64,000 nucleotides of DNA from Gemmatimonadota bacterium. Lineage in GTDB: Bacteria > Latescibacterota > UBA2968 > UBA8231. Where the stretch lies: positions 62,001-126,000 of the forward strand of contig JABJJN010000003.1 of assembly GCA_018660835.1 (NCBI GenBank). The letters are read 5' to 3'. Position numbers and translations under genes: made by a program. The notes under the pieces were generated by a model. The model ran no database searches. It was not told where the DNA came from and was given only the letters and a program-made list of their open reading frames with translations. Numbering within the stretch: position 1 is the stretch's first letter; each line of letters opens with the position of its first letter. Of the stretch, positions 12,612 through 43,994 are shown one piece after another.

Positions 12612-12664
12612 TTCGCAAAGCTTCAGTTGAGATCCCAATTGGCCAACAAAGATAGGGTCCTTCG

Positions 12665-14394: not shown

Positions 14395-14410
14395 TGGCAT
14401 GGAGATTGCG
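14395..14410 (+). promoter_or_regulatory. Predicted sigma-54 (-24/-12) promoter
   Basis: TGGCATGGAGATTGCG matches the sigma-54 consensus TGGCACG-N4-TTGCW, with C6 changed to T and the final W changed to G. Spacing is exact. The predicted start of transcription is near 14421, just before a strong ribosome site (GGAGGTGA, 14425-14432) for the PilZ gene at 14438. Half-sites TGTCCCA (14316-14322) and CGTCCCG (14327-14333) lie about 90-105 bases upstream of the start, where an activator might bind. Confidence 0.7.
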
Positions 14411-14437
14411 TTTCCGTATGTATCGGAGGTGATCGTC

Positions 14438-15379
14438 ATGGGACTCCCCCAGAAGATTGACACAGGAACCCAACCAACAGCCAATCAGATGGCAGTCTTC
14501 GGACAGGCTCGATGGATCAGTCTTGCCTGGGTATTTGGGGTTGTGACAGCAGTCCAGGCGTTAGACCGCGACGGCATGTGGCGGCAGATGGGCAGCACGG
14601 TCCGCTCAGATGAGAAGGCAGATGTCACATGGTTCCTCGCCGCCTTTGCGGCTCTGGTCATCGTCGTCTTCTTCGTGACGCGTCTGGTAGAACATCAACA
14701 CCAGCGGCGTGCTGTATCAGGTGGGCGCAGCAAGTTGCGGCGGACATTTTCACAGCAGGCAGGTGCGATGGGTTTTCGTCCTGTGGAGATCTCCAATTTG
14801 AGACGTATCGCCAGCCGCTTGTCTGGCGGCAGCGATCCACTGAATGTGCTCAGCACGAACAGTGGTCGTCAGTTTCTGACAGCGGATCTACGCAAGCGCA
14901 TCCGCCGACGAGAGCGGGAGATCGAAATGCTCGATCACATCCTGCAGAAACTCGGCACCGCTGGTCGCGGCTTCCATGAACGCGCTGGCATCAGAGTTGA
15001 GACGGACATCTCCATCTGGCTCGTCCACAGGGGTGAGGACAACCAGGGCGCTGACGACGAAATCGTCATCGACATCGCCCCCATCGCCGCTCGTCTCTTC
15101 GATTTGAGTGAGGCAGGAGCAGCGATCTGCGCCAACACCGAATTGAGCCCAGGGGATATCGTCGAATTCTGGTCAGGCGATCCTCAGTACTGGATTCCAC
15201 CGACGCAGTCGGGTGTCGTGAGTGTTCGTCCAACTAAGGACGGCACGAGAAATATTGGCCTGCACTTTCTGGATCCCCCACGAACTGAGATTCGACGTGT
15301 GATCCAGGAAATCCAGCGCCACGAACGAGAGGACTTGGACCAGATACTCCACGCTCCGGAAAGCCCGACCGACTCTTGA
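14438..15379 (+). CDS. Membrane protein with C-terminal PilZ (c-di-GMP-binding) domain
   Basis: This 313-residue protein has two membrane segments (about 20-42 and 63-82), a basic and coiled-coil cytoplasmic linker, and a C-terminal PilZ domain. The PilZ signature is complete: RxxxR as RAGIR at 182-186 and DxSxxG as DLSEAG at 222-227. It is therefore a likely c-di-GMP receptor. ATG 14438 has a GGAGGTGA ribosome site five bases upstream. An in-frame ATG at 14399 falls inside the -24/-12 promoter and is rejected. The stop overlaps the TTG start of the kinase gene (TTGA). The three-gene operon links c-di-GMP to a sigma-54 regulatory system. Confidence 0.82.
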   Translation: MGLPQKIDTGTQPTANQMAVFGQARWISLAWVFGVVTAVQALDRDGMWRQMGSTVRSDEKADVTWFLAAFAALVIVVFFVTRLVEHQHQRRAVSGGRSKLRRTFSQQAGAMGFRPVEISNLRRIASRLSGGSDPLNVLSTNSGRQFLTADLRKRIRRREREIEMLDHILQKLGTAGRGFHERAGIRVETDISIWLVHRGEDNQGADDEIVIDIAPIAARLFDLSEAGAAICANTELSPGDIVEFWSGDPQYWIPPTQSGVVSVRPTKDGTRNIGLHFLDPPRTEIRRVIQEIQRHEREDLDQILHAPESPTDS

Positions 15380-16497
15380 ATCTGAGCACCAAAATTTCGC
15401 TGAGTGTGAGCCTGATCGTCGTGGCGATTCTGGCCGTTGGTAACTGGCTCATCTGGGAGCGTCTTGACAGTTGGGCACTGCAGCGCGCTCACCTGCTTCT
15501 GGCTGCCTGGACGATGGGAGGTGTGGCCTTTGCAGTTTACTTTGCCGTCCGCCATCTGACTCGCCCCCTGCGCGACCTGACGAATCTGGCACAGGCTCTT
15601 GGGGAAGGACATCTCGATCGCCGACTTCAGTTCAGTAGCGATGACGAAATCGGCCAGCTGGCCCAGGCTTTTGATCGAATGGCGACGTCCCTGTCCTCGG
15701 CGCAGGACGCACTGGGACAGGAGGTCCAGGAACGCACCGATGAGCTCGAGCAGTCGCAGCGCCAGCTACAGCAGGCGGCACGACTGGCAGCCGTCGGCGA
15801 ACTGGCAGCGGGTGTGGCTCATGAAATCAACAATCCAGCGAGCACGATTCTCATTCGCGCGGGACAGTTGAGTGAATCGCCGGTGATTCAGGAAGGTCCC
15901 GGTCAGTTGGAAGAGGATCTGAGTGTGATCAGACGGCAGATCGAGAAGATCAGCTCCATCGTTTCTGGTCTACTGACCTTTTCCAGACAATCGACGGCGT
16001 CAGGGACGATGACGCCTCTGAATGTGAACGATGTTGTGAAACGTTCAGCAGAATTGACGACGGGGTTGTTTGAAAGTCGTAAAGTTGAGATAGCCCTTGA
16101 TTTGACCGACGACCTGCCCGCAGTGATCGCCGACAGCCCTCGAGTCGAGCAGGTAATGCTCAACCTGGTGAACAATGCCGTGGATGCCATGCCCGACGGA
16201 GGAAGACTTACCTTTGGGTCGGCTCGTGGTGAGGGAGAGTTTGAAGACTTCGTGGCAGCCTATGTGGAGGATACGGGAATCGGCATGGACTCTGACCATC
16301 TCGAGCGTGTATTCGATCCGTTTTTTACCACCAAAGAGCCCAATCAAGGCACGGGTCTGGGACTGTCGGTGAGTTATGGAATCGCACAAGATCACGGCGG
16401 ACACCTGGTTGCATCCAGTGTGCCCGATAAGGGTTCTCGCTTTACGTTGTATTTAGCCGGTTCCCAGGGCGAATCATCCGCCGCATCGGACGCTTAA
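15376..16497 (+). CDS. HAMP-domain sensor histidine kinase (NtrB/ZraS type)
   Basis: This 373-residue membrane kinase has two membrane helices at about 7-27 and 40-60 with only about a dozen residues between them, so it has almost no periplasmic sensor. HAMP covers about 59-112, followed by a coiled coil. The catalytic core has His149 (GVAHEINNPAS), N-box NLVNNAVDAM, DTGIGM, FDPFFTTK and GTGLGLS. The TTG at 15376 overlaps the stop of the PilZ gene. The NtrC-type regulator follows after 16 bases and is its likely partner. With no obvious sensor of its own, it may take its input from the PilZ membrane protein. Confidence 0.88.
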   Translation: MNLSTKISLSVSLIVVAILAVGNWLIWERLDSWALQRAHLLLAAWTMGGVAFAVYFAVRHLTRPLRDLTNLAQALGEGHLDRRLQFSSDDEIGQLAQAFDRMATSLSSAQDALGQEVQERTDELEQSQRQLQQAARLAAVGELAAGVAHEINNPASTILIRAGQLSESPVIQEGPGQLEEDLSVIRRQIEKISSIVSGLLTFSRQSTASGTMTPLNVNDVVKRSAELTTGLFESRKVEIALDLTDDLPAVIADSPRVEQVMLNLVNNAVDAMPDGGRLTFGSARGEGEFEDFVAAYVEDTGIGMDSDHLERVFDPFFTTKEPNQGTGLGLSVSYGIAQDHGGHLVASSVPDKGSRFTLYLAGSQGESSAASDA

Positions 16498-16513: not shown

Positions 16514-17923
16514 ATGCCCGAACGAATTCTCGTCGTCGATGACGAGGTCGATCTTGCCACCAGTTGCACGCGCCTGCTCGAAAGCCGCGGCTATGGAACA
16601 GGCATCGCCTGCAGCGCGGAAGAAGCACTGGAAATACTGGCTGCACAGGAATTCCAGCTTGTCGTAACGGATTTGAAGATGCCGGGTATAGGCGGCATGG
16701 AATTGCTGCGGCAGGTCCGCGAAGGGGCTGCTGAGATTCCCGTCATCATGATGACTGCCTACAGCACTGTGGAGGATGCGGTTGAGGCCATGCGCTTGGG
16801 CGCAGCGGACTTTGTCCCCAAGCCGTTCTCGCCCGATCACTTGCTCATCGTGATTGAAAAGGCACTCGAAAAGCGCTCCCTGCGACAGGAGAACCAGAGT
16901 CTACGCGATCAGCTGAGTCGCCACTACAGTTTCGACAATATCATCGGCAAGAGTGCGTCCATGGCGCAGATCTTCGAGTCCATCAAGAAGATATCCGGTA
17001 CAGATATTTCGGTCCTGATCTCGGGGGCCAGTGGTACGGGCAAGGAGTTGATCGCCAGATCGATTCACGCCAATAGCAAACGTGCGACGAAGCCCTTCGT
17101 GCCTATCAACTGTGGCGCCCTGCCCGAGAACCTGGTGGAGAGTGAGATCTTTGGCTACGAGCGGGGTGCCTTCACCGGTGCGGCGAAACCAAAACCGGGA
17201 CTCCTGGAAGAGGCCCATGGAGGCACGTTCTTCCTGGACGAGATCGGTGAATTGCCCCTTGCTCTACAGGTGAAATTCCTGCGCGTGCTCGAAGATGGAC
17301 GTTTCCGGCGTCTGGGCAGCAATCAGGAACGCGAGGTCGATGTGCGACTTGTGTGTGCAACCAATCGCAATCTTGAACAAGTCGTCGAGGAAGGCGACTT
17401 CCGCGAAGACCTCTTCTACCGCATCAACACGTTTCCCATCCACCTGCCTCCCTTACGGGAGCGGCGTGATGACATCGCTTTGCTCGCCGATCACTATCTG
17501 CAGGTCTATGCCGACAAGAACGGTATGGAAGCGGCGACCATATCGCCTGAGGCGATGGATCTGTTGATTGGATATGAGTGGCGTGGCAATGTGCGTGAAT
17601 TGCAGAATGTCATCGAGCGGGCGCTGGTGTTGGCGAGTAACAACATCGTGATGCCCGAAGATCTGCCTCCTAGTGTGAAGAAGTCCGACAACGCGCCCGC
17701 GGGAGAGCATCCCGAATTCTATCTCGATCTGCCCTTCAAGGACGCCAAGGAGCACCTCATCGAGGACTTCGAAAAGCGCTACATCGTCGAAGTACTCAAG
17801 ACCTTCGGCGGTAACATCTCGCGCTCTGCGGATCATAGTGGAATCGATCGACGTTCGCTGCATCGATTGTTGTCCAAGTACCACATCGATGCTCACCAGG
17901 TTGCAGCCGACGAGCAGGACTGA
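16514..17923 (+). CDS. NtrC-family sigma-54-dependent response regulator
   Basis: Transcription activator for sigma-54 RNA polymerase, 469 residues. The receiver (1-120) has acidic VVDDE and phospho-acceptor Asp53 (VTDLKMPG). The AAA+ domain (about 140-370) has Walker A Lys177 in GASGTGKE, the sigma-54 loop GAFTGA near 218-223 and Walker B FFLDEIGE. A Fis-type helix-turn-helix lies at the C-terminus (NISRSADHSGIDRRSLHRLL). It ends the operon with the PilZ protein and kinase. A -24/-12 promoter before the operon suggests autoregulation. It might also act on the sigma-54 promoters near 39-40 kb, but nothing in the sequence proves this. Confidence 0.94.
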   Translation: MPERILVVDDEVDLATSCTRLLESRGYGTGIACSAEEALEILAAQEFQLVVTDLKMPGIGGMELLRQVREGAAEIPVIMMTAYSTVEDAVEAMRLGAADFVPKPFSPDHLLIVIEKALEKRSLRQENQSLRDQLSRHYSFDNIIGKSASMAQIFESIKKISGTDISVLISGASGTGKELIARSIHANSKRATKPFVPINCGALPENLVESEIFGYERGAFTGAAKPKPGLLEEAHGGTFFLDEIGELPLALQVKFLRVLEDGRFRRLGSNQEREVDVRLVCATNRNLEQVVEEGDFREDLFYRINTFPIHLPPLRERRDDIALLADHYLQVYADKNGMEAATISPEAMDLLIGYEWRGNVRELQNVIERALVLASNNIVMPEDLPPSVKKSDNAPAGEHPEFYLDLPFKDAKEHLIEDFEKRYIVEVLKTFGGNISRSADHSGIDRRSLHRLLSKYHIDAHQVAADEQD

Positions 17924-28942: not shown

Positions 28943-28976
28943 GGGCAGCCACCCATGGTGGCTGCCCTTTTTTTTT
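28943..28976 (+). terminator. Rho-independent terminator
   Basis: A perfect 11-bp stem (GGGCAGCCACC / GGTGGCTGCCC) with a CAT loop is followed by nine T residues. It isolates the sigma gene from the arsenic operon. Confidence 0.96.
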
Positions 28977-29018
28977 GCCCACCCGATTGCGGAAATACGC
29001 GTCGGTGCTATATACGTG

Positions 29019-29046
29019 TTGCCATATATACGTAAATACGTATATT
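29019..29046 (+). promoter_or_regulatory. Promoter with overlapping operator-like palindrome (ars operon)
   Basis: A -35 box TTGCCA (29019-29024) and a -10 box TATATT (29041-29046) are 16 bases apart. A perfect palindrome (ATATACGTA-AA-TACGTATAT, 29026-29045) fills the spacer and most of the -10 box. An extra half-site (TATATACG) lies at 29009-29016. This is the expected position for repression by the ArsR encoded in the same operon. The arsM ATG lies 34 bases downstream of the -10 box. Confidence 0.72.
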
Positions 29047-29079
29047 CAAATGCATCACATCAAGAATCGGAGAAACCAG

Positions 29080-31097: not shown

Positions 31098-31487
31098 ATG
31101 GCGACGACCGATGTGGAAATCTTCAAGGCCTGCGCCGATGAGACGCGCTTACGGATCCTCGTATTGCTTGGCGAAGGTCAACTGTGCGTCTGCGACATCG
31201 TCGATGTCCTCGACATGCCCCAGGGCAAGGTCTCGCGTCATCTGGCCGTTTTGCGGCGTGCCGGACTCGTCGACGACGAACGACGTGGGACGTGGATCCA
31301 CTATTCTCTGAGCGCTGCCAGCTCCCCCTTAATGCAACGCCTGCATGCGTACACAAAGACGGAGGCCCGCCAGAGCGACACTGCACGGGGAGATCTTGAT
31401 CGCCTGCAGGAGTTATGCGCCTGTGGTGAAGTTTGTCTCGGCGAACGCGAGACTGCCGCACAGCCGGCCGCGATCGCCGCCACATGA
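31098..31487 (+). CDS. arsR: ArsR-family arsenic-responsive repressor
   Basis: Winged-helix metalloregulator of 129 residues. It starts directly after the acr3 stop. Cys30 and Cys32 in LCVCDIV form the classical arsenite-sensing motif at the DNA-recognition helix, followed by GKVSRHLAVLRRAGLV and a wing (RRGTWIHYSL). A C-terminal LCACGEVC motif adds more cysteines. It probably represses the operon through the palindrome at 29026-29045. Confidence 0.94.
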   Translation: MATTDVEIFKACADETRLRILVLLGEGQLCVCDIVDVLDMPQGKVSRHLAVLRRAGLVDDERRGTWIHYSLSAASSPLMQRLHAYTKTEARQSDTARGDLDRLQELCACGEVCLGERETAAQPAAIAAT

Positions 31488-31915
31488 ACCCCCTGAAAGT
31501 GTTGTTTCTCTGCACGGGGAACTCGTGTAGAAGTCAGATGGCAGAAGGCTGGGCTCGTCATCTGAAGAGCGAGCAGATCGAGGCATTTTCAGCCGGTATT
31601 GCGACCCACGGACTCAATCCACACGCCGTGGCCGTCATGGCCCAGGTCGGTGTTGACATCTCGTGTCAACGATCGCAGCACATTGACGAATTCTCTGACG
31701 TCGAGTTGGACATCGTCGTCACCGTCTGTGATCGTGCTGCTGAGAGTTGCCCGATCTTCCCGGGGGCGACGCGGGTCGTCCATCGCGCCTTCGATGACCC
31801 ACCACGTCTGGCCGCAGAGGCCGCGACCGAGGCAGAAGGTCTGGTGTTCTATCGACGTGTCCGCGACGAGATCAGATCATTCGTGGAATCCCTGCCCGAG
31901 GCGATCCTGCCGTAG
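31484..31915 (+). CDS. arsC: Arsenate reductase, thioredoxin-coupled type
   Basis: Reduces As(V) to As(III), 143 residues from ATG 31484, overlapping the arsR stop (ATGA). The low-molecular-weight phosphatase loop CTGNSCRS carries Cys10. Cys82 and Cys89 (TVCDRAAESC) are at the same positions as the redox pair of the well-studied Staphylococcus plasmid pI258 enzyme. It converges with the fhs gene, with six bases between the stops and no visible terminator. Confidence 0.94.
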   Translation: MNPLKVLFLCTGNSCRSQMAEGWARHLKSEQIEAFSAGIATHGLNPHAVAVMAQVGVDISCQRSQHIDEFSDVELDIVVTVCDRAAESCPIFPGATRVVHRAFDDPPRLAAEAATEAEGLVFYRRVRDEIRSFVESLPEAILP

Positions 31916-31921
31916 TTCAGA

Positions 31922-33640
31922 TCAGCTCAGTCCGGACAGCTCTCCGTGTTCATCGATGTCGATCCCCATGAACGCCGGCACAGAAGGGAGTCCGGGCATC
32001 GTCATGATGTCACCACACAGCGCATACAGGAAACCAGCTCCCGCCGACAGACGCACATCCCGTACTGGCACTGTAAAGCCAGTCGGTGCCCCCTTGAGGG
32101 TGGGATCATGAGAGAGTGATGCCGGGGTCTTGGCCATGATCACTGGCAGCTTGCCGAATCCGAGTCGACGATATTCATCCATCCTGTCCCGTGCGAGATC
32201 TGTGAACTCGACGCCATCGGCGCCATACACCTGCGTCGCCAGGGTCTTCATCTTTTCTTCAATCGGGGCATCCAACTCGTACAGATAGCCGAAGTTGTTG
32301 TCCGCGGCGCATGCTTCCACCACGGCCTCTGCCAGGTCCGAACCACCTTGTCCACCATGCGCCCACACGTCGGAGATCGCCACATCACGAGCCCCGGCTT
32401 CGATGGCGGCCTCCTTTACGAAATCGATCTCTGCATCCGTGTCCTCAGGAAAACGGTTGATCGCCACAACGGCAGGCACCCCAAAGCGACCAACGATCCC
32501 AAGATGCGCCGCAAGATTCGCCATCCCCGCTTGCAGGAAAGGCATCTGTTCGTCTACCGGAGGTCGCTTACTGCGGCGCGTCGGTAAGCCACCATGTTCT
32601 TTGAGTGCCTTCACCGTGGCGACGATGACGGCGCAATCTGGTTGTAGTCCGGACGTCCGGCATTTGATGTGAACGAATTTCTCGAAGCCACAATCAGAGC
32701 CAAAGCCAGCTTCCGTGACCAGATATCCATCGCCGAGGAGATTCAGGGCAATACGATCAGCGATAACAGAGCTGTTGCCGTGAGCGATGTTGGCGAAGGG
32801 CCCGGCGTGAACCAGCACGGGTGTGCCTTCCAGTGTCTGCATCAGCGTTGGCATGATCGCATCGCGCAACAGGGCCGCCATGGCGCCGGCCACACCCAGA
32901 TCTTCAGCCGTCACGGGCTGGTCGCTGCGATTGAAACCAACAACGATGCGTCCGAGACGCTCGCGTAGATCGGCTCGACCTGTCGTCAAGGCAAGAATCG
33001 CCATCACTTCTGAAGCGGCGGTGATGTCATAGCCAGACGAACGTTCGGTCTCGTCTTGCGCCAGGGTGATACTGCGTAAGGCTCGATCATTGATGTCGAC
33101 GACCCGACGAAAGGTCACCTGCTCCGGATCGATATCGAGTCGACGCAGACCTGCACGCTCGAGTCGTGCGTCGCTCAGGCGTGCTTCATGATACAGTCTC
33201 GAGTCGACAGCAGCGGCGAGCAGATTGTGGGCGGCACTGACGGCGTGAATGTCACCCGTCAGATGCAGATTCAGATCGACCATGGGCACGACCTGCGCGT
33301 ATCCCCCCCCTGCAGCGCCACCTTTCAGGCCGAAGGTTGGTCCTTGTGAGGGTTGGCGCAGGGCAGCGACGGAAGGATGCCCGAGCGTAGCGATCGCCTG
33401 CGCAAGTCCGACGGTGGTCACCGTCTTGCCCTCGCCCTGTTTGGTTGGCGTCATCGCTGTGACGATGACATAGCGCGGCGTTCCGGGCTTTGCATCCCGC
33501 TTGAGAACATCCAGATGCACCTTGGCCTTGTGGCGGCCATAGAGGTCGAGGTCATCCTCGGCCAGGCCGATGTCGGCAGCAACATCGACAATAGGGCGCA
33601 GAACGGCGGCGTTGGCGATCTCCAGATCAGTCTTCGCCAT
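31922..33640 (-). CDS. fhs: Formate-tetrahydrofolate ligase
   Basis: Cytoplasmic enzyme interconverting formate, THF and ATP with 10-formyl-THF, ADP and phosphate. From ATG 33640 it has 572 residues, close to the usual 556-580. The ATP loop TPTKQGEGKTV, GLKGGAAGGGYAQV, HAGPFANIAHGNSS and the C-terminal MTMPGLPSVP are all present. It is the last gene of the leftward corrinoid/C1 operon. In this setting it could run in either direction: releasing formate with ATP gain, or supplying C1 units. The intermediate enzyme FolD is not encoded in the window. Confidence 0.95.
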   Translation of the reverse strand: MAKTDLEIANAAVLRPIVDVAADIGLAEDDLDLYGRHKAKVHLDVLKRDAKPGTPRYVIVTAMTPTKQGEGKTVTTVGLAQAIATLGHPSVAALRQPSQGPTFGLKGGAAGGGYAQVVPMVDLNLHLTGDIHAVSAAHNLLAAAVDSRLYHEARLSDARLERAGLRRLDIDPEQVTFRRVVDINDRALRSITLAQDETERSSGYDITAASEVMAILALTTGRADLRERLGRIVVGFNRSDQPVTAEDLGVAGAMAALLRDAIMPTLMQTLEGTPVLVHAGPFANIAHGNSSVIADRIALNLLGDGYLVTEAGFGSDCGFEKFVHIKCRTSGLQPDCAVIVATVKALKEHGGLPTRRSKRPPVDEQMPFLQAGMANLAAHLGIVGRFGVPAVVAINRFPEDTDAEIDFVKEAAIEAGARDVAISDVWAHGGQGGSDLAEAVVEACAADNNFGYLYELDAPIEEKMKTLATQVYGADGVEFTDLARDRMDEYRRLGFGKLPVIMAKTPASLSHDPTLKGAPTGFTVPVRDVRLSAGAGFLYALCGDIMTMPGLPSVPAFMGIDIDEHGELSGLS

Positions 33641-33653
33641 CAGGTCTTCACCA

Positions 33654-34826
33654 TCAGACAAGCACCGGTGCTTTGACGAGGGCGGGATTGATGGGAAGAT
33701 CTCCCCAGGCTTCTACCATATCGCTAATGCGCTCCAGTCGGGAAATGAGGGCATCGGGCATCACATTGTCGGCGACGCCCAGAATGAAGGCGTCCCCAGG
33801 CGCGATCGTTGTGAAAACCCCGGCCATGTATTGCTCGAAATCTGCTTCCGAGAACGTTGGCTCGAGGATCACTGATGGGATGCCCCCCCAGATGATGACA
33901 TTGCTACCCCAGGCGTCGCGCGCCTGTTGAAGCGTACACGAAACCTGCGGTTCGGTTGTAAAGGTCTCCGCCATATCAAATCCGGCATCGCGCATGTGGC
34001 CGAGAATCAAGCGCGAGTCGTTGTCAGCATGAGTGCACAGCGTCTTGCCACAATGGTGCAGTTGCGCCGACAGATCCTGGTAGTACGGTGTGATGTAGCG
34101 TTCGAACAGGGGTGGTGGCGTCAGATTTGAGTCAAAATGCAATCCGTGCAACAACAGGCGAGCAGGCGAGGAAACCAGAAGGGGCCAGACACGTTCACGC
34201 TCGATCTCCTCCATGCGTCGCAGATGTGCTTCGACCTTTTCAGGACAGTCGGCGAGCAGATAGAAGGCATTCTGGTAACCGGCCTGTTTCTGCAGGAAAT
34301 GGTGGAATGGCACATCCCCGACCTGAACAAGAGGATAACCGTCGTCGCCGATCTGTGCCTCATAGGCTAGATACTCGTCGTATGTCGCCTCATACGACTG
34401 GTTTTCGATCAGATAGGCGACAACATCAATGTCCGCGGGCTCTTTGATCATGTGTTCAACCTCAAGAGCCTGAATCCCGGCGTCTGCCAGCACACTCGAA
34501 CTGCGTTGGCGGGTCGTCACGGTACCGACTGGCGTGCGAGTTTCAGTGAGGACAGAATCCCCCTGCTGATGTTCACGAATCTCTACGTCACCACCCTGAT
34601 GGGTACGGAAGACGTGCCCATCGCGCGCCGGCGTCCCCATACACAGTTGCTTTTCGAGTTCGCGTAGCGTGAGACCTGCGTAGCGCTCGGGCATGGTACC
34701 GCGATTGACTTGCGCCGTGTACCACAGCAGCAAACGCGGGATCCAGGGGACTCGATCAGGGCGCTGGTGATCCATGACCGCCAGCAAGCGCTGACGATGA
34801 GTCATCGTCGTCATCATATTCTGCAT
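33654..34826 (-). CDS. URO-D-family methyltransferase-like protein (paralogue of 42813-43994)
   Basis: This 390-residue protein of the uroporphyrinogen decarboxylase superfamily includes MtaA-type cobalamin methyltransferases. The N-terminal THRQRLLAVMDHQRPDRVPW and C-terminal WGGIPSVIL and ILGVADNVMPDA mark the subfamily. A possible metal site is HCGKTLCTHADND. No haem-pathway genes surround it, so a decarboxylase role is unlikely. It lies between the AcsE-MetF-MetV fusion and fhs, which suggests methyl transfer to or from the corrinoid protein. Several clustered ATGs make the exact start uncertain. The third URO-D gene at 42813 shares its motifs. Confidence 0.82.
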   Translation of the reverse strand: MQNMMTTMTHRQRLLAVMDHQRPDRVPWIPRLLLWYTAQVNRGTMPERYAGLTLRELEKQLCMGTPARDGHVFRTHQGGDVEIREHQQGDSVLTETRTPVGTVTTRQRSSSVLADAGIQALEVEHMIKEPADIDVVAYLIENQSYEATYDEYLAYEAQIGDDGYPLVQVGDVPFHHFLQKQAGYQNAFYLLADCPEKVEAHLRRMEEIERERVWPLLVSSPARLLLHGLHFDSNLTPPPLFERYITPYYQDLSAQLHHCGKTLCTHADNDSRLILGHMRDAGFDMAETFTTEPQVSCTLQQARDAWGSNVIIWGGIPSVILEPTFSEADFEQYMAGVFTTIAPGDAFILGVADNVMPDALISRLERISDMVEAWGDLPINPALVKAPVLV

Positions 34827-34901
34827 CACGACTGTGGTGTTCCGTCCGGCATCGGTCAGATTCCCTTCCTCACCCCGACGTCATTGGCGAGGGGGCAGGC
34901 C

Positions 34902-37508
34902 CTAGCGAGGTGGCATGGCTTCAACGGGAGGCAACCCTAGATCCAGTGGCTGCGGGCAAAGGCCTTCGATTTCATTGCGCCATGACGACGTATGTACAAG
35001 CGTGGGATCCTTGGGTGGCTGCAGCGAGAACAGAGCCTCCACACGATCCGTTGCGAGAGTTGCCTCCATTACCCGCCCCCAATAGCAGCGGCGCTCCGGG
35101 ATCACTTCGCAACCTCCCTGCAAGTCTGCGCCGGCGCAGGGCCCATTCAGGAGTCGCTTGGCGCAACCGGCGGTCGGTTCGGGACACAGATAGGCCAGAT
35201 CGGGGATGCGGCAGTCTCCGCACATTTCGCAACCGAGTTTGGAACTCTTTGTCCCCTGCTCAAAGAGTGTCGCCCAGCGCTGACGCCGGCCCTCTGGATC
35301 ACCACCAACCATCCATCGCAGTGCACCATTGAGTCCTTTGCCCTGCTCGAAATAACGTGCGTGCAGCGCCTGCATCTGTGGATCAACGGGTTCGTAGTCA
35401 GAACGATCCCCACGAACGAGGGGCCCATCGCTGCGCAGCAGACCATCGTCCTGATGTTCGAAGAGATAGAAGGGATCTGCCGTCGGCGCCATTTGCATGG
35501 GGCGGGAACCGTCAGCGTCTCGATACTCTTCCCATGACTCAAGCCAGTCGCGCCCGGACAGACTTGCCAATTCGTCCCGTACGGCACGAGCGTCATCCAA
35601 CTTCGTGATGCCCGCCAAATCAATACCGCGAAACGAAAGTCCCTCCAACAGAATGTGACTGAGCAAGGCCGCTCGGCGCACGGCCTGTCGATGCTGGTGC
35701 TCGGCGAGTTCACTGAAGTTCATCTTACGCAACGCGCGCAACTCTTCCCGTGCCCCAAGCTTGCCCTGGTACTTCTTTTTTAACTCATCGGGAACGACTG
35801 CACCCGCCACGTGCACACGATTCAGAACGCGCAGGAACTGTGGTGTCAGGAAGTAGACCATAGGGAACACAGGCATGTCCTGAATTCCCGCGCGTGTCAT
35901 CCACAGCTTCAATTCCTGAAACTTTGCCACGTCGTAGCCGAGTTGCGTGATGAGGTAATCGGCGCCGGCGCCGCGCTTCTTCCACACCTTCATATACTGG
36001 CCCCAGGTATCGGCTTCGGAGTATTTGAAGGGAGAGACGGCGGAGCCAATGCGCAGATCTTCGAGGGCACCCCCTGCACGTGGCAACAGATCAGGAAACT
36101 CGAGACCGCGACGCAGTGTATCGAGTGCCATGGCCAGATTGACAGCATCCAGATCGAAGATCGGCTTGCCACCTGTCGTATAGTCGCCGGTGACTGCGAA
36201 GAAGTGATGCAGACCCTGGTGGTAGAGAGCCAGGGCGCGGCGGATCAACGCATTCCGATCATCACTCTTGCAGGACAGGTTCACGATCGGCTGACGACCA
36301 CTGAGTCGCGCAATCTCAAGGGCCAGTGTGTCCGGACCGGGTGTGCGCTGACCTCCTGGTGTATCGGTGATGGTGAAGACGTAATCTTCGTCCCGCGCCT
36401 CTTCAGCAACTGCGAGGATCTGATCGAGGCCGCCTTCGGAGGGTGCCAGTTCGAGGATGAACACGGGGTCACCCTGCGGATCCTGCAATGCCCGGCCGAA
36501 GGGATCATCGAATTCCTGCACACGTTTGGGTGCCGCTGGTGCGCGTCGCTGTGACTGGGCGTAGTCAACGAGCAGCGTCAGCGCATCGACGGATGCACCT
36601 GAGCCCGCCGCAGCCCCGGCATCCGTGCCAGTGGCGATCGTACGGATCAACTTGAGAATTCGCCCATCCACCAGATCAGCCCCCGAGATCTGGCCAACAT
36701 CACAGATCGCCGCATCAACACCATATTCCATCGCGACACGTAGATAGGCGCGATTGATGGCGAGTCGACGTGGCAGGCCATCGGAACAATTCGACAGACC
36801 GAGCACGACATGGGCACCGGCCATCGCATCGTCCTCGCGGATCATGCGAATGCCCTCGAAGGTTCGCTTCGTATACCCCACCATGTCGGCGCCAAGAGGA
36901 CCTACGGTGGGATCGAAATACACTTCATTCGCCGCAATGCCTGCCTCGCGAGCGGCGACAAAGATCTGCCGTGCCGTTTCATGGTAGACGTCAGCATCGG
37001 CGATATCCGTAAACCCCGTTGCTGCCTCATCGCCCGCTTTCTCCAGCAGCATGCCCACCACGGCGAAAGGGAACTCCCGACGTAGTTGAAGTGCTTCGAG
37101 CCGATTGACTGTGACAGAGTTTACGAGCGGGACACGGGGGTTGGGGTCATCGGTGTGATCGTGATAGTGACGCAGGCCATATTCGAGCATCGATGGATCC
37201 GAAGAATCGATGCAGGGCGGTACGCCACCCCCCAGCAGGACGATGAGTTCGATGATGTGCGCCAGGACCTGCTGCGCGCCATCGTGACCAATCCCCTCGA
37301 TGGTGAAAAAGTCGTCCACGTTGACATCGAGAAAGCTGGCGCCAGAAGCAACCTGTTCAGTGACCAGTTTCCGCAGATGCCGATCACCAGCGAGGCGATC
37401 GATCCCATCCCCTGTCAACCAGCGCTGCGCCGATGTGCGCACACCGGGGATGTGACAGTGGAGACTCTCTGCAATGCGGATGAGCGATGGGTCGGCGGGC
37501 GAGCTCAT
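34902..37508 (-). CDS. AcsE-like / MetF / MetV-like triple fusion protein
   Basis: This 868-residue protein starts at ATG 37508 (GGAAGAG upstream). Residues about 1-290 resemble the pterin-binding methyl-THF:corrinoid methyltransferase AcsE/MeTr (FLDVNVDD, PPCIDSSDP, VPLVNSVTV, EVYFDPTVGPLG, GLSNCSDGLP). Residues about 345-640 are a MetF methylene-THF reductase (FILELAPSEGG, TDTPGGQRTPG, FFAVTGDY, ITQLGYD). Residues about 750-830 match the MetV-type C-terminus, with eight cysteines at 760, 763, 766, 775, 782, 791, 800 and 808. In acetogens these are separate proteins (AcsE and MetVF). The fusion would take a methyl group from corrinoid to THF and oxidise it to methylene-THF. The electron acceptor is unknown. 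Confidence 0.88.
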   Translation of the reverse strand: MSSPADPSLIRIAESLHCHIPGVRTSAQRWLTGDGIDRLAGDRHLRKLVTEQVASGASFLDVNVDDFFTIEGIGHDGAQQVLAHIIELIVLLGGGVPPCIDSSDPSMLEYGLRHYHDHTDDPNPRVPLVNSVTVNRLEALQLRREFPFAVVGMLLEKAGDEAATGFTDIADADVYHETARQIFVAAREAGIAANEVYFDPTVGPLGADMVGYTKRTFEGIRMIREDDAMAGAHVVLGLSNCSDGLPRRLAINRAYLRVAMEYGVDAAICDVGQISGADLVDGRILKLIRTIATGTDAGAAAGSGASVDALTLLVDYAQSQRRAPAAPKRVQEFDDPFGRALQDPQGDPVFILELAPSEGGLDQILAVAEEARDEDYVFTITDTPGGQRTPGPDTLALEIARLSGRQPIVNLSCKSDDRNALIRRALALYHQGLHHFFAVTGDYTTGGKPIFDLDAVNLAMALDTLRRGLEFPDLLPRAGGALEDLRIGSAVSPFKYSEADTWGQYMKVWKKRGAGADYLITQLGYDVAKFQELKLWMTRAGIQDMPVFPMVYFLTPQFLRVLNRVHVAGAVVPDELKKKYQGKLGAREELRALRKMNFSELAEHQHRQAVRRAALLSHILLEGLSFRGIDLAGITKLDDARAVRDELASLSGRDWLESWEEYRDADGSRPMQMAPTADPFYLFEHQDDGLLRSDGPLVRGDRSDYEPVDPQMQALHARYFEQGKGLNGALRWMVGGDPEGRRQRWATLFEQGTKSSKLGCEMCGDCRIPDLAYLCPEPTAGCAKRLLNGPCAGADLQGGCEVIPERRCYWGRVMEATLATDRVEALFSLQPPKDPTLVHTSSWRNEIEGLCPQPLDLGLPPVEAMPPR

Positions 37509-37527
37509 CGATTTATCTCTTCCTGGT

Positions 37528-38289
37528 CTAGGAGGTGGACATGGTGTGCATGGGTTCGATCTGGATGATGCCTTCGTCGTAGCTGGGGACGACCGTTGCA
37601 CCGGGCTCGACGATGAGGTAGTCCTGTTCGGGCCATGGACCGTCGAGCCAGCGCTGAAACAGCGTGAGATCGCCCTCTATTTCCTGATACTCCCAGCCAC
37701 GATCAGCGCAGATCTTCATAGCGGTCTGTTTGACTGGCAGGTGGCGTGAGAAGTCGAAATCGATGAAAACACCCCGTTTGTAGTGAGCGGTCCATCCCTC
37801 CATCACTTCGATCAGATAGCGGGCATTCTCCTCGCCGTATTGTTCGACGAGCTTGTCGTACTCCATCTGCGTACCCAGTCCGGCGCCTTGTTTGCGCTCC
37901 GGACGCTCACCACCTCGCTCGCGATGCTCAAGCCAACCGGTTGTGAAATAGTAGGTACCCGGATTGTCGAGAAAGAACTCTGAGTAACGCTCCTTGGACC
38001 CCAGAAAAAATGTGATGCAATCATGGGCACGAGGGATGATCAGTTGCGTATCAGCTGGTGCACGCAAGCCGTTGAGCATGTTGTTACACAACCCATACCC
38101 CACGAGGATCGCGTCGTACTTACCGGGCTCGATTGCATCGAGGCTCTCCTGAATCCGATCGATCCCAACCAGGGGATTGTCATGATACCCCTGGCTGAGA
38201 TACTCGAAATCGAACAGATTCGGCGATCGAGCTGCACAATGGCAGATCTCGCGGAAGGAGACCTCGCAAGCGAGGATTTTCAGAAACAC
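37528..38289 (-). CDS. DUF1638-family protein
   Basis: This 253-residue cytoplasmic protein carries the DUF1638 hallmarks: ILACEV at the N-terminus, GYGLCNNMLNGL, IIPRAHDCITFFLGSKERY and YYFTTGWLEH. The conserved Cys and His residues could bind a metal or cofactor. The family is typically found beside corrinoid proteins and methyltransferases. It lies two bases after the corrinoid gene here. Its role is unknown; helping reactivate or load the corrinoid is one guess. Confidence 0.85.
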   Translation of the reverse strand: MFLKILACEVSFREICHCAARSPNLFDFEYLSQGYHDNPLVGIDRIQESLDAIEPGKYDAILVGYGLCNNMLNGLRAPADTQLIIPRAHDCITFFLGSKERYSEFFLDNPGTYYFTTGWLEHRERGGERPERKQGAGLGTQMEYDKLVEQYGEENARYLIEVMEGWTAHYKRGVFIDFDFSRHLPVKQTAMKICADRGWEYQEIEGDLTLFQRWLDGPWPEQDYLIVEPGATVVPSYDEGIIQIEPMHTMSTS

Positions 38290-38291
38290 TC

Positions 38292-38936
38292 TTAGTTGCT
38301 CAGCTGGTCTATGAGCTCCCGTGCCTGGTCAGCTGCACTGGCTGCGTCGGCGGCATAGGCATCGGCCCCGATTTGGTCCGCATACGCCTGAGTGACGGGC
38401 GCGCCGCCCACCATCGTGCGCACATCATCGGTGATTCCCGCCTCCTTGATCGCTTCGACGGTGGCCTTCATAGATGGCATCGTCGTTGTCAGCAGAGCAG
38501 ACATGCACACAATCTGGACTCCCTGCTCACGAACAGACTCGAGAAAGCGCTCTGGTGGCACATCGATTCCCAGATCGACGATCTGGAAACCGGCGCCCTC
38601 GAGCATCATCGCCACGAGATTCTTGCCGATATCGTGCAGGTCACCCTTCACCGTGCCAATGGCGGCAATTCCGGCAGGTTCAACCTTCTCCTCGATGAGT
38701 TGTGGCCTGATAAGTTGCATTCCTGCCTTCATCGCTCGAGCGGCGATGAGCACCTCAGGGATGTAGAACTCGTTATTCTTGAACTTGGCACCGACAACAT
38801 TCATTCCGGCGATCAGACCCTCATGGAGGATTTCACGCACCGGAACTCCCTCGTCGAGAGCTTGTTGAACGCCCTCCTCGACCTCGGATGCCTGCCCCTT
38901 GATCAGGCTCTGAGCGACCTGCTGTAAGTCTGCCAT
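38292..38936 (-). CDS. Corrinoid (B12-binding) methyl-carrier protein
   Basis: This 214-residue protein of the MtaC/MtbC/MttC type shuttles a methyl group on cobalamin. An N-terminal helical cap (about 1-85, NNEFYIPEVLIAARAMKAGM) is followed by a B12-binding Rossmann domain with the DxHxxG motif GTVKGDLHDIGKN, in which the His is the lower cobalt ligand, plus MSALLTTTMPSM and VGGAPV. ATG 38936 is preferred; upstream in-frame sequence covers a predicted -24/-12 promoter (39025-39040). It is the central carrier of the operon. Confidence 0.94.
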   Translation of the reverse strand: MADLQQVAQSLIKGQASEVEEGVQQALDEGVPVREILHEGLIAGMNVVGAKFKNNEFYIPEVLIAARAMKAGMQLIRPQLIEEKVEPAGIAAIGTVKGDLHDIGKNLVAMMLEGAGFQIVDLGIDVPPERFLESVREQGVQIVCMSALLTTTMPSMKATVEAIKEAGITDDVRTMVGGAPVTQAYADQIGADAYAADAASAADQARELIDQLSN

Positions 38937-39024: not shown

Positions 39025-39040
39025 TGCAATCCGGGTGCCA
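39025..39040 (-). promoter_or_regulatory. Predicted sigma-54 promoter of the corrinoid gene
   Basis: On the minus strand TGGCACCCGGATTGCA matches TGGCACG-N4-TTGCW with a single change (G7 to C) and exact spacing. Transcription would start near 39014, leaving a leader of about 78 bases before ATG 38936. Two palindromes lie about 74-126 bases upstream. Confidence 0.75.
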
Positions 39041-39087: not shown

Positions 39088-39140
39088 TCATGGGACATGT
39101 TTGTCCCATGATCAGCACAGACCGGGACGACACCGTCCCG
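39088..39140. promoter_or_regulatory. Two palindromes at enhancer (UAS) distance from a sigma-54 promoter
   Basis: Palindrome 1 is a perfect 10-bp repeat (TCATGGGACA-TGTT-TGTCCCATGA, 39088-39111). Palindrome 2 is a perfect 7-bp repeat (CGGGACG-ACAC-CGTCCCG, 39123-39140). Both share the core GGGAC(A/G)-N4-(T/C)GTCCC. Their centres are 32 bp apart, about three helical turns. A further GGGACA half-site is at 39143-39148. Position and phasing suit tandem binding by an NtrC-type activator. RNA hairpins are an alternative reading. Confidence 0.65.
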
Positions 39141-39167: not shown

Positions 39168-40205
39168 TCACCCCAGTTCGAGACCTGCTGCGTAGAGGGC
39201 GACGACATTCTCGGGGGGACTCACAGACTGGATATTATGGCAGGGAGCCAGAATGTATCTGCCATTGGCCCCGAGAGTTCGCAGATTTTCACCAACCTCT
39301 GTCCGCACATCCTCCGGCGTACCGAAGGGCAAGGTCTGCTGATTGTCGACACCGCCGTGGAAGACAAGCTGGTCACCAAAATCCCTGCGCAACTGCTCGC
39401 GCTCCATACCCGGGCATCGCCACTGGATCGGATTCAGTACATCCATGCCCAGAGCGATCATGTCGGGCAGGACATCGCGTATGGCGCCATCAGAGTGAAA
39501 GAAGACGAAGGCCCCCGCCTCGTGCGCCAGATCCACCATGCGTTTCATCCGCGGCAACAGAAATCGGCGGATATGCTCGAGACTGAACATGAGACTCTCC
39601 TGACTACCCAGGTCTTCGGCGACGTAACTGATGTTGACCTGCCCCGGCAGCGACTCGTAGATCCGTGTTGAGTTCTCTCGAGCAAGATCGAACAGATGAT
39701 CGAGGCAATAGTCGACGATGTCTGGATGTTCGATCATATCGATGAAGGCTTGTTCCTGGCCACGCAGCTGTTTGTAGAGCAGGAATGGTTCGGACCCACC
39801 GCCACGGATGGGATACGCCTCCCACCCTCGAATCTGCCCGGGTAGTACGCTGTAGTCCCACCAGTCAGGGTGGGGCCAGTGATAGTTCGCCTCTATCTCT
39901 TCGACACTGTCGTAGGTGGCCAACGGATGATACACGGTCTCCGAGTAGACGCCGCCGCCATAGTCGACCAATTCTGCACGACAACCGTAGATGTCGTAAC
40001 CGATCTCAGGGGCGGGACCGACGTAGCGCGGTGTGACACTGAAGGGGCGATCGATACTCAATCTCTCCAGCATCTGCCGATCATCGCTGACGGCCAGATG
40101 GGCCTTCAATTTGTCTGTCGCTTCAGCAGTCGCCCAATAGTCCATGGGTATTCGGTCAGGCTTCTCTCCAGACAACACTGCAAGCCAACGTTCTTTGGGG
40201 GTCAT
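39168..40205 (-). CDS. URO-D-family methyltransferase-like protein (operon leader gene)
   Basis: This 345-residue protein starts at ATG 40205 with AGGAGAG seven bases upstream. It starts with the URO-D/MtaA pattern MTPKERWLAVLSGEKPDRIP. The C-terminal half has HSDGAIRDVLPDMIALGMDV, HGGVDNQQTLPFGTPEDV and ILAPCHNIQ, a probable metal site including His and Cys. It is more distant from the two other URO-D proteins here than they are from each other. As the first gene after a near-perfect sigma-54 promoter, and directly before the corrinoid gene, it is the best candidate for the substrate-specific methyltransferase. The methyl donor cannot be read from sequence. Confidence 0.85.
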   Translation of the reverse strand: MTPKERWLAVLSGEKPDRIPMDYWATAEATDKLKAHLAVSDDRQMLERLSIDRPFSVTPRYVGPAPEIGYDIYGCRAELVDYGGGVYSETVYHPLATYDSVEEIEANYHWPHPDWWDYSVLPGQIRGWEAYPIRGGGSEPFLLYKQLRGQEQAFIDMIEHPDIVDYCLDHLFDLARENSTRIYESLPGQVNISYVAEDLGSQESLMFSLEHIRRFLLPRMKRMVDLAHEAGAFVFFHSDGAIRDVLPDMIALGMDVLNPIQWRCPGMEREQLRRDFGDQLVFHGGVDNQQTLPFGTPEDVRTEVGENLRTLGANGRYILAPCHNIQSVSPPENVVALYAAGLELG

Positions 40206-40238: not shown

Positions 40239-40254
40239 TGCAACCACCGTGCCA
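40239..40254 (-). promoter_or_regulatory. Predicted sigma-54 promoter of the corrinoid/C1 operon
   Basis: On the minus strand TGGCACGGTGGTTGCA is a perfect match to TGGCACG-N4-TTGCW. Transcription is predicted near 40228, 23 bases before ATG 40205 of the first operon gene. The -24 box forms an inverted repeat with the -24 box of the divergent promoter at 40280. Confidence 0.85.
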
Positions 40255-40278
40255 CAGATGTTAGCTGCTTTGAATAGC

Positions 40279-40295
40279 TTGGCACGGAAGTTGTT
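40279..40295 (+). promoter_or_regulatory. Predicted divergent sigma-54 promoter of the MFS transporter gene
   Basis: TTGGCACGGAAGTTGTT has a perfect -24 box and a -12 box with one change (TTGT for TTGC), at the right spacing. Transcription would start near 40306. This leaves the purine-rich ribosome site at 40327-40343 in the leader and favours a GTG start at 40345 or 40351. Confidence 0.75.
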
Positions 40296-40344: not shown

Positions 40345-41709
40345 GTGTCAGTGAAGCAGATCATCGAAGTTCCGACGTCGCGCTGGAGCGTCGTCGCCGG
40401 TGCCCTCATTGTCCAGGTGATCCTGGGCACCGTGTATGCATTCAGCATCTTTGTAAAACCCTTGGAAATTGAGTTTGGCTGGTCGCGCACTGCGACGCAG
40501 TGGGCCTTCTCACTGGCCTTGGCGACCTTCGCCGTAAGCATGATTCCAGCAGGTCGTCTGCAGGACCGCCTCGGCCCGCGTACCGTCGCCAGTATCGGTG
40601 GAGCCCTATTGGGTGCGTCCTTCCTATTGGGGGCGATCTTGCTTGCCTGGGTGCGACAGCCGTGGGCCCTGTATCTGACGTACGGCATATTGGGTGGCGC
40701 AGGAATCGGCTTTGCCTATGTGTGCCCCATCGCTGCCGCCGTGAAGTGGTTTCCCGACAAGAAGGGTCTCATCACGGGTCTCGCTGTCGCCGGATTCGGC
40801 GCCGGCGCCTTGTTCTTTGCCGGTCCTGCCTCGGTTCTGCTGCAACCTTCCGGAAGTGGCGACGAGGCGATCGGAATATCACAGATCTTGTTGGTCGGCC
40901 TGGGGATCAAGGCCGGCGGCGGCTTCGGCATCGGCTGGCAGACTTTCTTCCTTCTCCACGGGGTCGTCTGCGTCGTTGGCGTTTTGGTGGGGGCATCCCT
41001 GTTGCGAAATCCACCAGAGGGTTACTTGCCGCCAGGCTACACCCCCCCTCCTGGCTCTGGGAAGCGCGATCTCGCCTGGCGCGAAATGCTGGACACACCA
41101 CTGGCGTGCATGCTGTGGCTGACCTTCATCTTTGGCGCCACTTCTGGTCTGATGGCGATCGGTCAGTGGAAACCGATGATGAATACCCTCTTGCAGGGCC
41201 AGACCTTTGCACCTGAGTGGATGGGGTCCTTTGGCCGATTCGTTGAACCCGTCGGTATCCTCGCCGTATTCAATGCCCTGGGTCGAGTGTTCTGGGGTAA
41301 GGTCTCCGATATCATCGATCGTCCACGCGCCATGATGATCATGTTCCTGGCGCAGGGCATGGCCTTCATGGTTCTGGTAAGTGTGGAGAGTACCGTCGCC
41401 GTCTTCGTCGCGTCTGCCTGGGTCGGATTGAACTTTGGTGGCAACTTCGCCCTGTTTCCGTCGGCAACGGCAGACTACTTCGGCAGCAAGAATCTTGGCA
41501 TGAACTATGGCTGGATCTTCACCGCCTACGGCGTGGCAGGTATCCTTGGCCCCGTGGTAGGTGGCGTCCTGTTCGACGTAACCGACCAGTATATCCTGCC
41601 CTTCGTCTTCGCTGGCACGCTCTGCTTCATCGCTGCCGGATGCTCGGTTGCCGTCTGGGGTCTGGCACGAGCACGAAATCGTGAAGCGGCGGAAGGAACG
41701 ATCCAATGA
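40345..41709 (+). CDS. MFS transporter, oxalate/formate antiporter (OFA) family
   Basis: Inner-membrane carrier of about 454 residues with roughly twelve membrane segments. OFA-type features include RWSVVAGALIVQVILGTVYAFS, FGWSRTATQWAFSLAL, AGRLQDRLGPR, GGAGIGFAYVCPIAAAVKWF and PDKKGLITGLAVAGFGAGA. Characterised members move oxalate, formate or other small carboxylates. The start is ambiguous: GTG 40345 (chosen), GTG 40351, or ATG 40309, which would be almost leaderless from the predicted sigma-54 promoter. Expressed divergently from the C1 operon, it probably imports the substrate or exports a product such as formate or the demethylated acid. Confidence 0.88.
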   Translation: MSVKQIIEVPTSRWSVVAGALIVQVILGTVYAFSIFVKPLEIEFGWSRTATQWAFSLALATFAVSMIPAGRLQDRLGPRTVASIGGALLGASFLLGAILLAWVRQPWALYLTYGILGGAGIGFAYVCPIAAAVKWFPDKKGLITGLAVAGFGAGALFFAGPASVLLQPSGSGDEAIGISQILLVGLGIKAGGGFGIGWQTFFLLHGVVCVVGVLVGASLLRNPPEGYLPPGYTPPPGSGKRDLAWREMLDTPLACMLWLTFIFGATSGLMAIGQWKPMMNTLLQGQTFAPEWMGSFGRFVEPVGILAVFNALGRVFWGKVSDIIDRPRAMMIMFLAQGMAFMVLVSVESTVAVFVASAWVGLNFGGNFALFPSATADYFGSKNLGMNYGWIFTAYGVAGILGPVVGGVLFDVTDQYILPFVFAGTLCFIAAGCSVAVWGLARARNREAAEGTIQ

Positions 41710-42806
41710 CCCCTCGACTTGTGTCGCTGGCGCTGTTTCTGCTGTCCTTGGTGCCCGTGTCTGCTGCGCAGGACACGGAACTGGAGTGGTATGGATATCT
41801 GCGACTGGACATGGCCCATGACACGGCCCAATCCAGTCATGGCAACTACACTGTCTTCGTCCAACCTCATCCTGCGGGTGAAGCGACCTCAACGATGAGT
41901 GTCACGGCGCGGCAGTCGCGCCTCGGTGCGCACGCCACTCGGGGCACGATGACGGGGCGTCTCGAGGTCGACTTCTATGGTGTCAGCCCTGAAAACAAGA
42001 ACACCGTCATGCTCCGCTACGCCTACATGAGTGTCCCTGTTGGCGCATTCACATTGCGGGCGGGACAGACGATGGACATGATCTCCCCCCTCAATCCACT
42101 CACCGTCAACTACCCTGTCATCTGGGGAGCCGGTAACATCGGTTATCGCCGCCCCCAGATTCAGCTGTTTCGCCGCACCGAGGCCTATTTCGCTGGACTG
42201 GCCCTGACACGAAACATCACGGGCGATCTCGACGGCGACACCATCGTCGACGGTGATGCATCTGGTGTGCCGGCCATTCAGGGCCGCGTCGCTCTGCGAC
42301 CCGAATGGACCTTGCCGGGGCTCGAATTGGGTGTGTCCGGCCACTACGGCAAGTGCAACTGCCCGGCGAAGGATATCGACTACAACAATTGGTCTGTCTC
42401 CGGCGACCTGGCCTGGAAGAGCAGCCGCGTGAAGGTGCTCGCCGAAGTGTATCGGGGTTCGAATCTTGGAGCCTACGCTGGGACGATCTACAACAGCGAC
42501 AGGGTGAATGGTCTGCACAGCATGGGCGGCTGGGCGAATCTGCAAGTAGCCCTCGATGAGCTGACTCGAGTGTCCATCGGCGGTGGCAGGGACGATGTAG
42601 ATGAAGCCGACCTTGGTGCCGAGCAACAGGGCGTGCGAGAGCGCAATCAGGTGGCCTTCGCGGCAGTTCTTCGTCAGATCACACCAGAGGTGACGGTAGG
42701 ATTCGAGTTGTCTCATTGGGCGACGCGGTATTCAAATCCAGCACTCGGCAGCGAGGCAGAACCCACGGATCTGCGATTGCAGTGGTCGATTCAAGGGAAT
42801 TTCTAG
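41706..42806 (+). CDS. Outer-membrane porin (DcaP-like)
   Basis: This 366-residue outer-membrane barrel has a signal peptide (about 1-21, LVSLALFLLSLVPVSAAQ). The mature chain alternates beta-strands typical of trimeric porins (ELEWYGYLRLDMAHD, SRLGAHATRGTMTGRLEVDF, LRYAYMSVPVGAFTLRAGQ) and ends in an aromatic residue (QGNF), as is usual for barrels. The closest pattern is the DcaP-like group linked to small organic acids. It overlaps the MFS gene (ATGA), so channel and carrier are co-expressed. Confidence 0.85.
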   Translation: MTPRLVSLALFLLSLVPVSAAQDTELEWYGYLRLDMAHDTAQSSHGNYTVFVQPHPAGEATSTMSVTARQSRLGAHATRGTMTGRLEVDFYGVSPENKNTVMLRYAYMSVPVGAFTLRAGQTMDMISPLNPLTVNYPVIWGAGNIGYRRPQIQLFRRTEAYFAGLALTRNITGDLDGDTIVDGDASGVPAIQGRVALRPEWTLPGLELGVSGHYGKCNCPAKDIDYNNWSVSGDLAWKSSRVKVLAEVYRGSNLGAYAGTIYNSDRVNGLHSMGGWANLQVALDELTRVSIGGGRDDVDEADLGAEQQGVRERNQVAFAAVLRQITPEVTVGFELSHWATRYSNPALGSEAEPTDLRLQWSIQGNF

Positions 42807-42812: not shown

Positions 42813-43994
42813 ATGACGACACATCATCAGCATCTGCTGGCTGCCATGCGTGGCCAGCAGGTAGACGGGGTACCGTGGGCACCACGCATGGATCTGTGGC
42901 AGATCGCGCTGCAGGCACGGGGCGCCTTACCGACTCGCTTTGCCGGGATGCACACGGCGGACATTGCCAGACAGCTGGATGTAGCCTGCCATGCCGTGCG
43001 CGGCGACTACACACTGACAAGGCCGAGCGAGGATGTGGTGCTGCGCGGCCTCGGCATCGACAACCATCCGGACTATCCGTATCGCGTCGAGATCGAGGGC
43101 CTGTCCATTGAGGCAGATGTGGCACCCGAGCACGTCCACACCGTCGTGCATACGTCAGCCGGTGATGTCACGACGCATCTGGAGCTGACGGCGCAGATGA
43201 AGGCGGAGGGGATCTCTCTGCCCTTTGTGCGTCAGTACCCGATCGAGACGGTTGCCGATCTTGAGCGCGTAGCTGAGGTATTCGAGCACTGTCGTGTCAT
43301 TCCTACGCCCGCTGCCTATGCACAGTTTCACCAGCGCATTGGTGAAGCAGGTGTCGCTGTCGCCTCCGGGCCCATCGCCGCCTCACCGATGCATCTGGTT
43401 CTGCATGATCTGATGGCGATGGACCGCTTCTTCTATCTCTACGCCGACGAACCGGAGGCATTGCGTTCCTTCGCCACACGCCTGGACCCATTCTATGATG
43501 CCTGTCTCGATGCAGTGGTTGCCAGTGCGGCTGAGGTCGTTTTCTGGGGGGCCAACTACGATCGTGATCTGACGTGGCCCCCCTTCCTCGAGCAGGAAAT
43601 CGCGCCATGGTTGCGGCGGGTCGCAGAGCGATTGCACGATGCGGGCAAGCTGCTGCTGACGCACTGTGACGGCGAGAACGACGGCATCGGCCATGTTTTC
43701 GCCGATTGCGGCGTCGACGTGGTGGAGTCCGTCTGCCCCACACCGATGACGAGTCTCGATCACCAGGCGCTGCGTACGGCCTTTGGCCCTGACGTCACGA
43801 TCTGGGGAGGCGTGCCGTCCGTCGCCTTGCTCGAAGCGTCCATGTCCCAACAGGACTTCTCCACCTATGTGGATGATCTGTGCGAACAGATCGGCGACGG
43901 TCATCGTTGGATCCTGGGTGTATCCGACAATGTGCCTCCCGACGCGGACATGGCACGACTCGAATACCTTCGCGAACGCTTCGCCGCATCCTAA
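42813..43994 (+). CDS. URO-D-family methyltransferase-like protein (paralogue of 33654-34826)
   Basis: This 393-residue protein shares its order of motifs with the gene at 33654: MTTHHQHLLAAMRGQQVDGVPW at the start, a mid-protein LTHCDGEND site (possible His/Cys metal ligands), then WGGVPSVALLEASMS and WILGVSDNVPPDADMARLE. It follows the porin gene by six bases, so it belongs to the divergent transport operon. A duplicated pair of URO-D proteins, one per operon, suggests either two methyl donors or two steps (substrate to corrinoid and corrinoid to acceptor). Confidence 0.82.
   Translation: MTTHHQHLLAAMRGQQVDGVPWAPRMDLWQIALQARGALPTRFAGMHTADIARQLDVACHAVRGDYTLTRPSEDVVLRGLGIDNHPDYPYRVEIEGLSIEADVAPEHVHTVVHTSAGDVTTHLELTAQMKAEGISLPFVRQYPIETVADLERVAEVFEHCRVIPTPAAYAQFHQRIGEAGVAVASGPIAASPMHLVLHDLMAMDRFFYLYADEPEALRSFATRLDPFYDACLDAVVASAAEVVFWGANYDRDLTWPPFLEQEIAPWLRRVAERLHDAGKLLLTHCDGENDGIGHVFADCGVDVVESVCPTPMTSLDHQALRTAFGPDVTIWGGVPSVALLEASMSQQDFSTYVDDLCEQIGDGHRWILGVSDNVPPDADMARLEYLRERFAAS

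Follow-up and report, generated by a model that had tools for sequence, protein, structure and literature searches.

Two operons diverge from one intergenic region of the window, by which we mean the whole 64-kb stretch of DNA that was analysed. On the minus strand, the C1 operon starts with URO-D1 (39168..40205), encoding an MtaA/CmuA-like methyltransferase, and continues with genes for an MtgC/MtbC-like corrinoid protein (38292..38936), a DUF1638 protein (37528..38289), a fusion of a pterin-binding methyltransferase with MTHFR and MTHFR C-terminal domains (34902..37511), URO-D2 (33654..34829), and a formate--tetrahydrofolate ligase (31922..33661). On the plus strand are genes for an MFS transporter of the lactate/monocarboxylate type (40345..41709; NF049980, 378 bits with a cut-off of 320), a DcaP-like outer-membrane protein (41706..42806), and URO-D3 (42813..43994). 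URO-D1 scored 50.8 bits against the MtaA/CmuA methyltransferase family TIGR01463, below the curated cut-off of 235.4; its assignment is to the URO-D superfamily only. Judging from these gene families, the C1 operon would move methyl groups of a presumed substrate to or from folate.

Several neighbouring features were recorded. An arsenic-type cluster adjoins the operon (28975-31915); its members, recognised by eye from the ORF translations, are arsenite methyltransferase-like, ACR3-like pump, ArsR-like, and ArsC-like. Some relatives have an extra URO-D gene between those for the corrinoid protein and the DUF1638 protein that is not in the window (L184 3015-4214, L185 11147-12307, L187 11897-13057). 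In G011 (L186 11700-19246) the operon has as neighbours a MarR-family regulator, CODH/ACS genes (CdhD, Prismane/CODH), and a second position for formate--THF ligase, a setting that links it to a Wood-Ljungdahl pathway.

Sigma-54 elements and an enhancer pair at the locus

We scanned for promoters with the -24/-12 pattern TGGCAC-N5-TTGCW, using TGGCAY-N5-TTGCW as the core criterion. Element A, before URO-D1, is on the minus strand at 40239..40254 (read 40254-40239, TGGCACGGTGGTTGCA) and matches the pattern with 0 mismatches. Its predicted +1 at ~40228 is 23 nt upstream of the URO-D1 start, ATG 40205, with GAGGAG in between; the GTG at 40247 that opens the long ORF sits within A and is not the start. 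Element C, before the transporter gene, is on the plus strand at 40280..40295 (TGGCACGGAAGTTGTT) and differs from the pattern only by a change of C-12 to T, which removes the important C of the -12 box. Its predicted +1 at ~40306 is followed by a GGAGGAAGAGGAAGG stretch and GTG 40345/40351. The original prediction of a perfect minus-strand element and a plus-strand element with a single change was thus borne out. It had also described the two -24 boxes as an inverted repeat 33 bp centre to centre; the repeat is there in the window sequence (40241-40254/40280-40293, 14 nt, 86%), but the distance between the TGGCAC boxes was measured at 31 bp.

A third element, B, which was absent from the original prediction, lies in the same operon 1.2 kb from A. 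It is on the minus strand at 39025..39040 (39040-39025, TGGCACCCGGATTGCA), upstream of the corrinoid-protein ATG at 38936, with a predicted +1 at ~39014. A and B are the only perfect -24/-12 matches in the 64-kb window. Just upstream of B are two strandless enhancer (UAS) dyads, tandem 18-bp palindromes of the form TGRGAC-N6-GTCYCA. Dyad 1 (39091..39108, TGGGACATGTTTGTCCCA) is a perfect palindrome and the sole mismatch-free TGGGACA-N4-TGTCCCA in the 7.09-Mb genome, and dyad 2 (39123..39140, CGGGACGACACCGTCCCG) is 32 bp from it. By its sequence, the pair is a typical putative enhancer for a sigma-54 activator. It is placed between URO-D1 and the corrinoid-protein gene, ~1.1 kb from A and C. No conserved enhancer-like dyad was found near A or C.

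Conservation of the elements and controls for chance

We compared 64 genomes of the phylum Latescibacterota and found the orthologous operon in four genomes of the same family besides the source, G005 and G008 (partial contigs), G011, and G017 (record L102 is identical to G008 in the operon region). Absence of the elements from orthologous loci, which the original prediction named as grounds for giving it up, was not what we found. A is kept in 5/5 loci with the operon, as is B, whose -24 box is TGGCAC/T. C is kept in all four loci that have the divergent MFS gene and is missing from the one that does not (0/1, G011). The intergenic DNA outside the elements hardly aligns among orthologues. Tandem UAS pairs spaced 32-33 bp apart are upstream of B in four of the five genomes (the window, G008, G011, G017; in the relatives the pairs are in L185, L186, and L187), and G005 has one perfect dyad there. 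Among 79 other, remote URO-D1 homologues, none had a site with ≤1 mismatch within 400 bp upstream, a result that delimits the clade and leaves the promoters unrefuted.

Could a consensus this short simply be matched by chance in a GC-rich genome? The count of window sites with ≤2 mismatches is only modestly above that in shuffled sequence (47 vs 33.7), as such an explanation would have it. However, the conservation at orthologous positions and the enhancer pairs speak against chance, and the orthologue test leaves it extremely improbable. When each intergenic segment was dinucleotide-shuffled, a correctly oriented site with ≤1 mismatch turned up in 0.2-1.2% of cases per element.

Genome-wide pattern searches of the 7.09-Mb genome found 26 perfect -24/-12 matches compared with 6 for the reversed pattern. 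Because the reversed-pattern control is biased by composition (246 vs 112 over all spacers), we replaced it with a spacer control, in which matches at 5-bp spacing were compared with those at five wrong spacings among the first 100 of the 246 matches listed. Within these 100, TTGCA occurred 13 times at 5-bp spacing vs 14 times summed over the five wrong spacings (p=1.5e-4), whereas TTG(A/T)T was not enriched (5 vs 23). Other perfect sites in the genome precede, as judged by eye, ammonium transporter-, flagellin-, and small heat-shock protein-like genes, which are typical sigma-54 targets. The genome encodes RpoN, with a single match to the RpoN DNA-binding domain (212 bits), and ~38 strong AAA domains of sigma-54 activators (bEBPs). 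On the sequence evidence we regard it as near certain that A and B are sigma-54 promoters.

The case for C is less straightforward. Its -12 box is TTGTT or TTGAT in all four loci; the three relatives with the transporter have the form TGGCAC-N5-TTGAT. This is the box that was no commoner at the proper 5-bp spacing than at wrong spacings among the first 100 of 246 matches, and in C even the spacer is conserved, something that sigma-54 alone would not require. Thus, A and B could be sigma-54 promoters while C, though conserved, represents a -24-like half element or an operator of another kind, with the transporter read from a different promoter. We consider this rather unlikely, since C disappears together with the transporter and TTG(A/T)T boxes recur before the nap and ccm genes and a sigma-factor gene, there 81-180 bp downstream of UAS dyads. 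The strongest argument that C is a real promoter is the occurrence of these boxes at several loci of the predicted regulon. By eye, we saw no conserved -10 box of a sigma-70 promoter for the transporter in the C-region sequences of the orthologues. The distance between the -24 boxes of A and C (26, 19, 16, and 16 bp, first T to first T) differs among orthologues and, because of this variation, an operator of fixed geometry at A/C was ruled out. C is probably a sigma-54 promoter.

A candidate activator and its predicted regulon

A cluster of two-component genes lies on the plus strand of the window. It consists of HK1, a PAS-histidine kinase-receiver protein (12665..14254), HK2, a HAMP-histidine kinase (15376..16497), and RR (16514..17923). 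RR has the complete NtrC-type domain set of a receiver, a GAFTGA-bearing sigma-54 AAA domain, and a Fis-type HTH. A sigma-54 site precedes HK2 and RR at 14395..14410 (plus, TGGCATGGAGATTGCG), with orthologous sites in G005, G008, G009, G011, and G017. Between this site and HK2 the window has a PilZ-domain ORF (14399-15379) that was not seen there in relatives. An RsmB/F-type rRNA methyltransferase gene is divergent to HK1 (window 11610-12638; G005 L248 685-1620). Against curated cut-offs RR scored 493 vs 714 for AtoC, 427 vs 558.6 for NtrC, and 426.6 vs 600 for NtrX, all of them below the cut-off.

The RR gene is 22 kb from the promoters, and in G000, G011, and G017 it shares a contig with the operon, 21-39 kb apart. 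Orthologues with ≥65% identity occur in 7 of the 64 phylum genomes, including all five that bear the operon; in G007 and G009, RR is present and the operon was not found. RR is 65-66% identical to its orthologues in relatives, with the next paralogue at ~42%, and its recognition helix, GIDRRSLHRLL, is identical in all seven and unlike that of the other bEBPs checked in the source genome. The HK-RR operon is preceded by a UAS pair together with a sigma-54 site (CGGCATAGAGATTGCT) in G008, G011, and G017, and its orthologue in G005 and G009 by GGGCATGAAGATTGCA and UAS-like dyads; upstream of HK2-RR in the source genome there are only weak UAS dyads. From these features RR is most likely the activator of the methyl-transfer promoters. 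The proposal that methyl-transfer and transport genes are tied to one activator is plausible, as an inference; the enhancer pair adjoins B and is ~1.1 kb from A and C.

The promoters might instead be real and served by another bEBP, for example a PAS-type bEBP (orthologue at G000:C16:38777-40117). The locus G005 L219 favours this, since it carries URO-D2, the formate--THF ligase gene, and the bEBP gene with UAS dyads on both sides. However, no orthologue of this bEBP was found in G008, a genome that bears the operon, and strong dyads are absent at the orthologous gene in the source genome, which makes it an unlikely activator. At G005 L219 6472-7951 the UAS-flanked gene is beside a sigma-70-like gene near the end of the operon.

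UAS dyads together with sigma-54 sites also precede other genes. Single UAS matches (≤1 mismatch) were not enriched in the genome (55 vs 44), so only combinations of UAS and sigma-54 sites or conserved pairs were trusted. In the source genome a UAS and a sigma-54 site (TGGCACGGATGTTGTT) are upstream of napDA, the site being 14/16 identical to element C. The cbb3 oxidase operon has UAS and sigma-54 sites upstream both here and in G005. The gene for 2-oxoacid:ferredoxin oxidoreductase is preceded here by a UAS dyad and sigma-54 sites with ≤1 mismatch, and by UAS dyads in G009. Both kinds of site also precede ccmE-ccmF in G008 and G017 and a sigma-70-type factor gene in G011 and G017. The UAS-linked genes thus have mostly low-oxygen or anaerobic respiration functions. 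Because some of these loci were fetched for a matching motif, the regulon is a prediction. The methyl-transfer and transporter genes appear to share a switch protein with genes for low-oxygen respiration.

Proposed circuit and known systems

Our best reading is that a sigma-54 two-component system controls a regulon for low-oxygen metabolism, to which methyl transfer would belong, with an enhancer inside the C1 operon. In this model, RR is phosphorylated by its linked kinase on a presumed signal and would then bind the tandem 18-bp palindromes between URO-D1 and the corrinoid-protein gene, 50-100 bp upstream of B. Sigma-54 RNA polymerase would be positioned at three -24/-12 promoters, A for the URO-D methyltransferase, B for the corrinoid protein, and C for the divergent transporter. 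RR would open B by looping and, more speculatively, A and C as well from ~1.1 kb away; alternatively, A and C could depend on another activator or on unrecognised sites. RR would also autoregulate its own operon and control cbb3 oxidase, nap, ccm, and 2-oxoacid:ferredoxin oxidoreductase. If RR controls these genes for low-oxygen respiration, methyl transfer would belong to a wider low-oxygen regulon as one of its branches. We assign a probability of about 0.65 to this explanation as a whole, that is, three sigma-54 promoters of the C1 locus, an RR-bound enhancer pair, and a low-oxygen regulon. A bolder version is that one shared intra-operon enhancer pair drives all three promoters and that low-oxygen life in Latescibacterota is governed by the activator as a sigma-54 two-component master regulator, which would span methyl transfer, cbb3, nap, ccm, ferredoxin-linked enzymes, and an alternative sigma factor and would tolerate TTG(A/T)T as a -12 box; this we put forward tentatively.

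To our knowledge, almost nothing is known about gene control in Latescibacterota, and a limited literature search found no paper on sigma-54 in this phylum. Control of low-oxygen respiration is usually assigned to FNR, FixLJ, or Reg-type regulators. If the model is correct, one sigma-54 two-component system would govern both the use of methyl groups and low-oxygen respiration. With promoters that are conserved, an enhancer motif, and a specific candidate for the activator, what began as a guess about promoters becomes a predicted regulon and a gene-control circuit for an uncultured lineage, open to in vitro tests that do not need the organism. The GGGAC/GTCCC motif was not found in the main text of two Desulfovibrio sigma-54/RR papers.

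Divergent operons controlled by sigma-54 are known from the orp system of Desulfovibrio vulgaris, where one bEBP, DVU2106, acts together with IHF (PMC3897727). In orp the divergent promoter region itself holds the palindromic and IHF sites and the cluster includes the bEBP gene (PMC3897727), whereas here the dyads are inside one operon ~1.1 kb away and a two-component RR encoded 22 kb away is the candidate activator. In Clostridia, MttB, the trimethylamine:corrinoid methyltransferase, is predicted to be regulated by sigma-54 (PMC12316311); that case shares with ours a corrinoid methyltransferase gene under sigma-54, but the enzyme belongs to another superfamily (URO-D here), and the phylum and the operon are different. 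Members of the NtrYX/PlrSR type are reported to respond to oxygen tension and include an rsmB-plrP-plrSR cluster (PMC13001219). The likeness is an NtrC-like RR with a kinase and an RsmB-type gene nearby (11610-12638 here). However, RR carries the GAFTGA motif and scores below the NtrX cut-off (426.6 vs 600) and nearer to AtoC, and rsmB is divergent here. As far as our searches could show, this kind of system is already known, and what is new is its wiring, its enhancer motif, and the lineage in which it occurs.
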